Shown here: positions 6,635 to 9,851 of the stretch, one piece after another
How the letters are laid out: every line of letters starts with the position of its first letter
Numbering within the stretch: position 1 is the first letter of the stretch
Assembly (NCBI GenBank): GCA_024280495.1
Contig: JAJRPZ010000052.1
Location: forward strand, 1-39,671
From: Alphaproteobacteria bacterium
GTDB taxonomy: Bacteria > Pseudomonadota > Alphaproteobacteria > Caedimonadales > UBA9215
Reading direction: 5' to 3'
DNA: 39,671 nucleotides
Program-made: the position numbers and the translations under genes
The notes under the pieces: model-generated
What the model saw: the letters and a program-made list of their open reading frames with translations, nothing else
The model's database searches: none
Told to the model about the DNA's origin: nothing

Positions 6635-7309
6635 ATGGCTTTACCTACTATTCATCACCATTTAGGAGATTTACCTGAAGGGATACTATTTCCAAATGGC
6701 GTCGCCATTGATACAGAAGCCATGGGGCTGAATCCTCATCGAGACCGTTTGTGTGTTGTACAGCTTTCTGGTGGTGATAATATGGCTCATGTCGTGCAGG
6801 TTAATTTGGATCATAACTATGATTGTCCTAATTTGAAAAAAATCTTAAACGATAATAACGTTCAAAAAATTTATCATTATGGTCGCTTTGATATTGCCAT
6901 TTTGTACCAATACTTGGGGATCTTAACTACCAATGTTTTTTGTACTAAAATTGCCGCAAAGCTCGTGCGGACTTACACGTCAAGGCATGGTCTTAAGAAT
7001 CTTTGCAGTGAAATGCTCTCTGTCGAACTCTCAAAACAATCTCAAACATCAGATTGGGGAAGTAAAACCCTGACAAAAGAACAGCTGGCCTATGCTGCCA
7101 GTGATGTTTTGTATTTGCATAAGTTAAAAGAACAATTTGATGACGTTTTGATCCGTGAAGGACGTGTGGATTTGGCAAAACGTTGTTTTGATTTTTGCCA
7201 ACGGTGGCTCAATTGGACTTGTTGGGGTATGAAGATTTGTCTCTTTTTAATCATAAATAATAATGAATCAGAAATTGGGTCTAGAAAAAGAGATGGGCTT
7301 GAAAAATAG
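6635..7309 (+). CDS. rnd: Ribonuclease D (short alphaproteobacterial type), frameshifted near the C-terminus
   Basis: This is a 3'-5' exoribonuclease of the DEDDy family that trims structured RNAs. Visible motifs are Exo I 'VAIDTEAMGL', Exo II 'KIYHYGRFDIAIL' and Exo III 'LAYAASDVLYLHKL', so the catalytic acidic residues and the tyrosine are present. There are no HRDC domains, as usual for the short form of about 205 residues. The last ~40 residues are wrong for the family: after 'RCFDF' the frame changes, and adding one T to the T run at 7192-7196 restores 'LPTVAQLDLLGYEDLSLF' with a stop at 7258-7260, just before the next gene. AAGAAAG precedes the ATG. The catalytic core is intact whichever end is real. 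Confidence 0.9.
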   Translation: MALPTIHHHLGDLPEGILFPNGVAIDTEAMGLNPHRDRLCVVQLSGGDNMAHVVQVNLDHNYDCPNLKKILNDNNVQKIYHYGRFDIAILYQYLGILTTNVFCTKIAAKLVRTYTSRHGLKNLCSEMLSVELSKQSQTSDWGSKTLTKEQLAYAASDVLYLHKLKEQFDDVLIREGRVDLAKRCFDFCQRWLNWTCWGMKICLFLIINNNESEIGSRKRDGLEK

Positions 7310-8351
7310 TACTAACTCCCATGAAATCAACTCTCAAAAAATTTTGAAATTGCCTATGACTAAAAAACAAACAAAAGCTTTCTTAGAAAAAGCACAAAAT
7401 ACACTGTTAATTGAGGCAGGGGCTTTAACGTCCTTAGCTTCTGCTATTATGCTTGATTTATCGGAGCCTTTTGAAAAAGCGGTGGAAGCTTTATATGCAA
7501 CCAAAGGTCGTGTTGTGATTACGGGTATGGGGAAAAGCGGTCATATTGGCAATAAAATTGCGGCGACCCTATCCTCCACTGGAACGCCAAGCTTCTTTGT
7601 ACACCCAGCAGAAGCAAGCCACGGTGACCTTGGTATGATTACGCCACAGGATACGATTATTGCCATGTCTAACTCTGGTGAAACCACCGAACTTTCTGAT
7701 ATTATGGGGTATGCAAAGCGTTATCATATGCCGTTAATTTCTTTCACGTCAAACCCTAACTCTACATTGGCGACTTTGGCTGATATTTCTTTGGTGTTAC
7801 CTAAACACAAAGAAGCCTGTCCCCATGGTCTAGCACCGACGACATCATCCACAATGATGATTGCTTTGGGGGATGCTTTGGCCGTGGCCGTTTTGGAGAA
7901 GCGTGGTTTTTCTGCGGCTGATTTTAGTTTGCTCCACCCAGGTGGTAAGCTTGGTCAGCGTTTAACACCTGTTGAGAAATTAATGCATGGAAAAAAAGAC
8001 CTGCCTTTGTTGTTTCCAGAGGCCTCCATGGCTGAGGCTCTGTTACAAATGACGTCAAAAGGTTTTGGGTGTGTTGGTATTTTGGGTGAGGATCAGGACC
8101 TCATTGGTATCATCACCGACGGTGATTTGCGTCGTCATATGGAAGGGGATCTCATGGGGGCCTCTATCAAGGACGTTATGACACCGACACCGAAACTTAT
8201 CAGGCAGTCTCTTTTGGCTCAGGAGGCTTTGACCATGATGAACGACTTTGGGATTACTTGCTTATTTGTGCGGAAATCAGAAAATGAAATGGATCGTGTC
8301 CCCATAGGAATTTTACATGTTCATGATTGCTTACGTGTGGGATTGACTTAA
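7263..8351 (+). CDS. kdsD: Arabinose-5-phosphate isomerase (KdsD/KpsF)
   Basis: KdsD converts ribulose-5-phosphate to arabinose-5-phosphate, the first step toward Kdo for the LPS core. It has a SIS domain (about residues 80-215: 'VVITGMGKSGHIGNKIAATL', 'GTPSFFVHPAEASHGDLGMI', 'AMSNSGETTE') and two CBS domains (about 240-295 and 305-360: 'GIITDGDLRRHME', 'DVMTPTPKLI'). The start is uncertain: ATG 7263 immediately follows the restored rnd stop, ATG 7293 has a poorly spaced GAG, and ATG 7356 best fits the family N-terminus but has no ribosome binding site. It lies between rnd and the lptC-lptA fusion, the usual alphaproteobacterial order, and supplies the LPS that the next genes export. Confidence 0.93.
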   Translation: MNQKLGLEKEMGLKNSTNSHEINSQKILKLPMTKKQTKAFLEKAQNTLLIEAGALTSLASAIMLDLSEPFEKAVEALYATKGRVVITGMGKSGHIGNKIAATLSSTGTPSFFVHPAEASHGDLGMITPQDTIIAMSNSGETTELSDIMGYAKRYHMPLISFTSNPNSTLATLADISLVLPKHKEACPHGLAPTTSSTMMIALGDALAVAVLEKRGFSAADFSLLHPGGKLGQRLTPVEKLMHGKKDLPLLFPEASMAEALLQMTSKGFGCVGILGEDQDLIGIITDGDLRRHMEGDLMGASIKDVMTPTPKLIRQSLLAQEALTMMNDFGITCLFVRKSENEMDRVPIGILHVHDCLRVGLT

Positions 8352-8373: not shown

Positions 8374-9765
8374 ATGACTTTGATTGATACGTCTTCTTTG
8401 AAAACAAAAAAAAGTCTCTCCAATGATGCTTTGCGTAAAATGAAACGTCATTCTATACGTGTGAAAAATCTTAGACGTGTCTTGCCTGCACTTTCTATTT
8501 TTCTCATTTTAGGTGTTATTCTCTGGATTAACTTGGATTCTTTTTTAGAAGAAAAAATTGAGGGTATTCCACAGACTGTTAAAAGAATAAGCGTTCTAAA
8601 CAAAGTAAAAAAACCACGTTTTCATATGACCGATAATGACGGAAATCCCATCCGCATTCAGGCAAAGTCTGGCACACAAAAAAGTGACACAAAGACTCAT
8701 CTGGTTGCGCCATCTGCTGATTTTGTTGGACCAGATGGCGAACAAATAACCTTAACGGCTAATAAGGCTTTTATTGATCAAGAAACTCAGAAGTTTGTTT
8801 ATGTGGGGGATGTGCGCTTTATTTCTGATCAAGGGTCTAATAAGGGTTTTGATGTACGAACAGACAAGATTACTGTGAATTTAAAAACTAAAAATATTTC
8901 AAGTGAGACACCGGTTATTGCTTTAGTATCCATGGGGCGCTTGACGTCGCCACAGGGTTTTTTCTTTAAGGGAAAGGATCAAGAATTAACGTTTATTGGT
9001 GAAACCCGCCTAATTATCTCCCGAGAAAAATATATTGAAACAGAAATTGTTGCTCAGGATGGCATTATTTGTCAGCTCAAGGATAAAATATGCAGGGCTA
9101 AGGGAGGGGTTGTGACCATCAGAAAATCACCAGGTGGCAGAACTAAAATGACCAGTGATTTTTTGCAGGCCTCTTTTAGTAAAGAATCTGGCACAACCGT
9201 ATTGGAAAATCTTATAGCAGAAAAAAATGTGAAAATAATACATGGAAAATTGGGTTTTAAAGCAGTGTCACAGTTTGCTCGTTATAATGTAGCCGAAGGA
9301 GGGACTCTTTTATTAACGGGAAAACCTATTTTGTCTCAAGGTGAAAATGTCCTTTATGTTGGGCGAGAACTCGTTATTAATGAACGGAATCTCACGGCAA
9401 AAACAAAAGGGCGTTCAACCCTCAAAATTATAGATAAATTATTGCAAGCCGATCACATGACTCTTTTTTTTAAAAAGAATTTGGAGGGACGTTTGAAAAT
9501 GGATCATTTGACAGTAAATAGCAATGTAAAACTTTCGACTCCCCATGAGTTTGTCACTGCCCAAAAAGGTGTGTACTATGCAGGCATAAAAGTGGCAGAA
9601 TTATTTGGTAAAGTGCATATTAAGCGAGACATCGGAATCGTTCAAGGTCAATATGCACGATTTGATATGGTCACTGGAGAGAGCCAATTGAAAAGCACCG
9701 TGAAAAAGACAGGGGTGAAAATGCCCCTTGATGAAAGAGTACATTTGGTTTTAGAGCCTTTATAG
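8374..9765 (+). CDS. lptC: LptC-LptA fusion protein, LPS export
   Basis: One uninterrupted 463-residue frame carries both periplasmic LPS-transport parts. A basic cytoplasmic N-terminus and one membrane helix (about 38-54, 'LPALSIFLILGVILWIN') are followed by an LptC domain (about 80-215: 'FHMTDNDGNPIRIQAKSG', 'ITLTANKAFIDQETQKFVYV', 'GFDVRTDKITVNLKTK', 'GRLTSPQGFFF'). From about 220 it continues as an LptA/OstA beta-jellyroll with repeated motifs ('LIAEKNVKIIHGKLGFKA', 'HLTVNSNVKLSTPHEFVTAQ', 'GKVHIKRDIGIVQGQYARFD'). There is no stop, new start or signal peptide between them; separate LptA normally has its own signal peptide. LptC recruits LPS from LptB2FG and LptA forms the bridge to LptDE. 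lptB follows after a small inserted element. Confidence 0.85.
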   Translation: MTLIDTSSLKTKKSLSNDALRKMKRHSIRVKNLRRVLPALSIFLILGVILWINLDSFLEEKIEGIPQTVKRISVLNKVKKPRFHMTDNDGNPIRIQAKSGTQKSDTKTHLVAPSADFVGPDGEQITLTANKAFIDQETQKFVYVGDVRFISDQGSNKGFDVRTDKITVNLKTKNISSETPVIALVSMGRLTSPQGFFFKGKDQELTFIGETRLIISREKYIETEIVAQDGIICQLKDKICRAKGGVVTIRKSPGGRTKMTSDFLQASFSKESGTTVLENLIAEKNVKIIHGKLGFKAVSQFARYNVAEGGTLLLTGKPILSQGENVLYVGRELVINERNLTAKTKGRSTLKIIDKLLQADHMTLFFKKNLEGRLKMDHLTVNSNVKLSTPHEFVTAQKGVYYAGIKVAELFGKVHIKRDIGIVQGQYARFDMVTGESQLKSTVKKTGVKMPLDERVHLVLEPL

Positions 9766-9772
9766 CTAATCA

Positions 9773-9851
9773 TTTTTTGTTTACACTTTGTTGCTTCGCT
9801 CCTTGGCTATAAATATAGCCGTCGTCCCTTACGCCTCGTGTAAACAAAAAA
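9773..9851. mobile_element. 79-bp MITE-like insertion with perfect inverted repeats and target duplication
   Basis: The element is bounded by 14-bp perfect terminal inverted repeats, TTTTTTGTTTACAC at 9773-9786 and its complement at 9838-9851. A 7-bp direct repeat CTAATCA flanks it exactly on both sides (9766-9772 and 9852-9858), as left by transposition. An inner 16-bp palindrome, GGCTATAAATATAGCC (9805-9820), could fold as a second hairpin. It has no coding capacity. It lies between the lptC-lptA fusion, whose stop is at 9763-9765, and lptB, so the hairpin would sit in the joint transcript. Confidence 0.75.

Follow-up and report, generated by a model that had tools for sequence, protein, structure and literature searches.

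A predicted LptC-LptA fusion protein in an alphaproteobacterial genome, with counterparts in other alphaproteobacterial groups

LptC and LptA are normally two proteins that carry lipopolysaccharide (LPS) across the cell envelope, and the contact between them normally forms and breaks. Here we describe an alphaproteobacterial gene, lying between kdsD and lptB, in which both are encoded by a single open reading frame. Taking all the evidence together, we consider it very probable that the product is an inner-membrane-anchored LptC that continues, after a turn of three residues, as a stack of LptA jellyrolls and carries LPS to LptD. Judging from their sequences, LptC-LptA fusions are also present in two or three other alphaproteobacterial lineages (the groups f42, f94, and f184).

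Results

One reading frame encodes LptC followed by LptA

The window, by which we mean the whole stretch of 39,671 nucleotides that was analyzed, is an entire contig (C75) of the draft genome G000 (1.14 Mb, 99 contigs, 89% complete). The fusion gene starts at an ATG at position 8374, ends with a stop codon closing at position 9765, and contains no internal stop. The features discussed below are as follows.

7263..8351, + strand: kdsD (arabinose-5-phosphate isomerase, with SIS and CBS domains), by Pfam
8374..9765, + strand: lptC-lptA fusion gene, 463 codons, by open frame, Pfam, NCBIfam, and relative-built profiles
8461..8550, + strand: LptC transmembrane helix, residues ~30-58, by hydropathy; helix 11-64 in the model
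8548..9009, + strand: LptC jellyroll domain, Pfam 59-212, by Pfam, model pLDDT, and PDB LptC matches (3my2, 6mit_C)
9019..9042, + strand: junction, residues ~216-223, with a short turn at 218-220, by strands in both models and alignment to the congeners' genes
9034..9693, + strand: LptA part, predicted long form, residues 221-440, by Pfam (354-435), profiles (225-440), and pLDDT
9897..10640, + strand: lptB (ABC ATPase of the LPS transporter), by Pfam

When the 463-residue product was searched against Pfam, with gathering scores as cut-offs, an LptC domain (PF06835) was found at residues 59-212 (63.3 bits versus a cut-off of 21, E 2.9e-17) and an LptD_N/LptA domain (PF03968) at residues 354-435 (33.5 bits versus 20.4, E 5.5e-8). 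The NCBIfam model LptC_YrbK (TIGR04409) also matched above its cut-off (68.2 bits versus 38), and the full-length equivalog model LptA_YhbN (TIGR03002) scored 42.1 bits, under its cut-off of 71.7. Profiles built from alphaproteobacterial relatives assigned residues 30-214 to LptC and residues 225-440 to LptA. By hydropathy, the sole hydrophobic segment lies at about residues 28-62 (first residues of the 19-residue spans, 28-44); beyond residue 70 the highest 19-residue value is 0.96, which leaves no further membrane helix or signal peptide, and a hydrophobic segment that could represent an LptA signal peptide was not found near residues 200-230. The protein thereby has the single N-terminal membrane helix and the predicted periplasmic jellyroll of an LptC, as seen by hydropathy, modeling, and PDB matches, and it lacks the signal peptide and soluble periplasmic location of an LptA. 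Neither G+C nor third-position G+C shows a break along the gene.

These results bear out the initial annotation in reading one 463-codon frame as LptC and then LptA, in placing an LptC part with a membrane helix at about residues 38-215, and in seeing no stop, start, or signal peptide between the halves. It had put the LptA part at about 220-445; the domain family holds, the start is refined to about residue 221, and this part appears to be a long, double-length form. It spans about 220 residues, whereas the E. coli chains of known structure have about 130. Since two LptD_N matches are found in the separate LptA of both congeners (G001 and G002) and in the f42 fusions, the LptA half is read from sequence as the long, two-unit form, of which only the second LptD_N unit is above the Pfam threshold in the fusion itself.

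The fusion is probably the only LptA of its genome

The order kdsD, fusion gene, lptB is the same as in the congeners, with SIS and CBS domains upstream and an ABC ATPase downstream, so the locus is in its normal place, as had been proposed. The kdsD frame as called begins 46 bases within an upstream 3'-5' exonuclease frame (6635-7309; overlap 7263-7309). Since its similarity to the congeners starts only at about residue 30-43, kdsD probably begins at a start codon downstream of the called one. Separately, the gap between the fusion gene and lptB holds a perfect 14-nt inverted repeat (window 9773-9851; TTTTTTGTTTACAC / GTGTAAACAAAAAA, arms 51 nt apart). It occurs once in the window and may be a small palindromic element.

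Profile searches of the contigs of G000 found the fusion as the only LptC. One other LptA-type domain was present, within an 826-residue frame on contig C51 that we take as LptD, and lptF and lptG adjoin it there. The Lpt genes found are then the fusion, lptB, lptF, lptG, and lptD, and no separate lptA was found in the 99 contigs of this 89% complete genome, in line with the initial annotation's proposed check for a second copy. Since the only other LptA-type domain sits in LptD, the fusion is probably the sole LptA of the genome; a separate lptA could, strictly speaking, still lie in the missing part of the draft.

Predicted structures join the two halves strand to strand

Two structure predictions were made, model 1 with LptA relatives aligned and model 2 with LptC relatives, because a joint alignment put the LptA rows onto LptC. 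Model 1 has pLDDT values mostly above 90 over residues 221-440 and is poor at 58-104 and 172-201, while model 2 is mostly above 90 at about 75-210, good across the junction to about 250, and poor over much of 261-453. By Foldseek, model 1 matches E. coli LptA and P. aeruginosa LptH, and model 2 matches the LptC chains 3my2 (TM-score 0.81 by target length) and 6mit_C; a phmmer search of the fusion against PDB sequences gave no match. Both models have strands at residues 211-217/218 and 221-227, and they predict that the last LptC strand passes through a turn of about three residues into the first LptA strand, giving an unbroken strand stack. Two jellyrolls in line had been anticipated by the initial annotation, and this stands for the junction, where both models join strands, but is not confidently modeled over both halves in either prediction.

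The same geometry bears on whether the protein stays in one piece. Exported proteins can be processed, so the fusion might be made as one chain and then cut in the periplasm, leaving LptA to work as the usual free protein, although nothing direct points to this. We consider it improbable, since both models show two strands separated at the junction by only about three residues rather than by a long flexible linker, and a freed LptA would start inside its own first strand.

The junction differs from the congeners' genes by an in-frame loss

The other nine genomes of the order, two congeners and seven more, all have lptC and lptA as separate genes; the two genes occupy this locus in each congener and are on different contigs in G006 and G008. 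In each congener, a TAATG overlap joins an lptC of about 218 codons to an lptA of 283-289 codons, with lptA in a different frame and an N-terminal hydrophobic signal peptide on its product by hydropathy. When aligned to the congeners' LptC and LptA joined end to end, the fusion lacks 34-37 residues, in frame, comprising the LptC tail, the LptA signal peptide, and the first mature LptA residues; the stop is also gone. Conserved residues are kept on both sides of the junction and along the whole length of the fusion. Since lptA lies in another frame and has a hydrophobic start, a lost stop or a one-base sequencing error would not produce this protein. The number of missing residues, which is not that of a single-base change, argues against the missed stop or frameshift near residues 205-225 that had been named as a possible cause. 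In the proposed course of events, a deletion within the genus would have removed the end of lptC, its stop codon, and the stretch of lptA that encodes the signal peptide, thereby fusing an overlapping lptC-lptA pair.

LptC-LptA fusions recur in other alphaproteobacterial groups

A survey of related genomes, which the initial annotation had called for, returned the separate genes of the order described above and fusions in f42, f94, and f184, and from these sequences the fusion appears not to be unique to the window genome. In f42, which belongs to another order, LptC and LptA are fused in both genomes (G047 and G140). Among the genomes sampled, 29 of 43 in f94 gave a single match covering almost the entire protein (28 of these stop-free), and in ten more a longer frame held matches to both LptC and LptA; in f184, a 25-genus alphaproteobacterial family, a single match beginning at or before residue 50 and ending at or after residue 590 was obtained in 44 of the 60 sampled, 42 of them stop-free. 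At least 12 fused genomes of these three groups, several of them 97-100% complete, were searched for LptA, and the above-cut-off matches were either the fusion or a frame that we take as LptD, about 800-1100 codons long; no separate LptA was found in them. Candidate fusions with equal open-frame lengths in G082, G199, G114, and G291 were rejected, as a stop lies between both genes.

The f184 fusion (e.g., in G771, G757, and G760) has an LptA part with two or three LptD_N (OstA) matches, no separate LptA was found in six f184 genomes checked, and an alanine-rich stretch before the LptA part is possibly the relic of a signal peptide. In several f94 genomes (e.g., G812, G813, and G832-G835), LptC and multiple LptA-like matches occur in one frame of 457-714 codons, which suggests that the number of jellyroll units varies among these fusions. 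Separate alphaproteobacterial LptA proteins come in two sizes, long (domain of about 210 residues or more) and short (about 130), each making up roughly half of the loci collected, which are partly redundant.

The fusion most likely arose within its own genus

In a concatenated LptC and LptA tree, the window protein clusters with those of both congeners (support 100/100). A clade of its own (96/95) unites the fusions of f42 and f94, and those of f184 fall elsewhere on a long, unsure branch; three changes are required. From these positions, with the window protein beside its congeners and the f42/f94 clade apart, an independent event within its genus is the most likely origin.

A fusion that is ancestral, common to f42 and f94, and split again in the congeners would account for part of this pattern, and constraining the window, f42, and f94 fusions to one clade, while 45.7 log-likelihood units worse, gave a p-AU of 0.068, short of formal rejection. 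On the other hand, the tree sets the window protein with the congeners' separate genes, every other genome of the order keeps the genes separate, and re-splitting would need a new signal peptide gained more than once. We regard such an ancestry as unlikely and favor the origin within the genus.

The gene is diverged but intact

The genome is smaller than those of the congeners (1.14 Mb, at 89% completeness, versus 1.7-1.8 Mb), and its lptC, lptA, and kdsD sequences have diverged more from the congeners than the congeners have from each other, which are signs of genome reduction with faster evolution. The fusion itself is about 40% identical to the congeners' proteins, while these are 60-68% identical to each other. 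Both the small genome and the fast-evolving copy would suit a non-functional fusion decaying in a shrinking genome, with LPS transport being dispensable or performed by another LptA. However, the frame is intact over all 463 codons with conserved positions kept in both halves, lptB is 83-85% identical to the congeners, lptF, lptG, and lptD are intact, and no other LptA was found in G000, so we judge decay to be very unlikely and a working fusion the better reading.

Finally, an assembly or sequencing artifact that joined two separate genes would fit a 99-contig, 89% complete draft that is the one genome for its species, but it is scarcely credible, since a one-base error would keep the signal peptide in frame whereas about 34-37 codons are missing in frame from a pair overlapping as TAATG in different frames, base composition does not break along the gene, and unrelated, more complete genomes (up to 100%) have the same architecture.

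Discussion

Because its LptC anchor and its LptA end belong to a single chain, the fusion would make the LptC-LptA contact permanent, and its LptA part could neither diffuse nor gain further free units, so the bridge would have a fixed length. LPS extracted by LptB2FG would enter the LptC part and slide on to the LptA part in a single continuous groove; LptA would dock through its free C-terminal edge on the N-terminal jellyroll of LptD. LPS transport by the fused protein is a prediction from sequence, as are association of the LptC part with LptB2FG, for which lptB is adjacent and lptF and lptG are on C51, and binding of the LptA part to LPS and to LptD, whose gene is present. The initial annotation had proposed a fixed LptC:LptA ratio of 1:1; this is better put as one anchored long LptA per LptC, with the stoichiometry a predicted consequence of the fusion.

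In E. coli, the N-terminal edge of LptA is where LptC is located (PMC5575297), and this is the geometry that the fusion needs. Monomeric LptA (LptAm) supports E. coli growth, and a bridge of one LptA with LptC and the LptF/G and LptDE parts is put at about 16 nm in a periplasm of 21 nm (PMC5575297); by our estimate, a longer LptA would lengthen this bridge. A 2023 review states that the LptA copy number in the LPS bridge is unknown (PMC10094684). In organisms whose sole LptA is part of such a fusion, the gene itself sets the LptA count per LptC, and they offer natural tests of the number of LptA units required by the bridge. The same organisms are relevant to the stability needed in the LptC-LptA contact, which is presented as an antibiotic target in a report on thanatin (PMC7237710).

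Phrase searches and broader title and abstract searches found no paper on a natural LptC-LptA fusion, with subscription journals and preprints outside their scope. The component families LptC and LptA are well known, and since the fusion is common in f184, domain databases very likely list the combination already. We lean toward the broader view that covalent LptC-LptA has arisen several times in Alphaproteobacteria and is normal in whole families, where the LPS bridge would work without free LptA and the number of units would be set by the gene. Recurrence in other genomes is established, and selection for the fused state does not follow from it.

Compared to known systems, the fusion resembles LptC (YrbK; PF06835, TIGR04409) in its membrane helix, jellyroll, position between kdsD and lptB, and scores above curated cut-offs, but LptC ends after the jellyroll while the fusion runs on into LptA. 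It shares an LptA-family jellyroll with LptA (YhbN/OstA; PF03968, TIGR03002), with model matches to E. coli LptA and P. aeruginosa LptH, but has no signal peptide, is not soluble, is about 220 rather than about 130 residues long in this part, and falls below the NCBIfam full-length cut-off. Like the window's fusion, those of f42, f94, and f184 have LptC and then an in-frame LptA in place of separate genes, as the only LptA where checked. On the other hand, the LptA part is mostly short (about 120 residues) in f94, there are two or three OstA units with linkers between them in f184, and these fusions are common to whole clades, whereas the window's is so far limited to one species. E. coli LptC with monomeric LptA (LptAm, PMC5575297) likewise gives a bridge without the need for LptA oligomers, but LptAm is an engineered truncation of a free protein, while the window's protein is predicted to be a covalent fusion.
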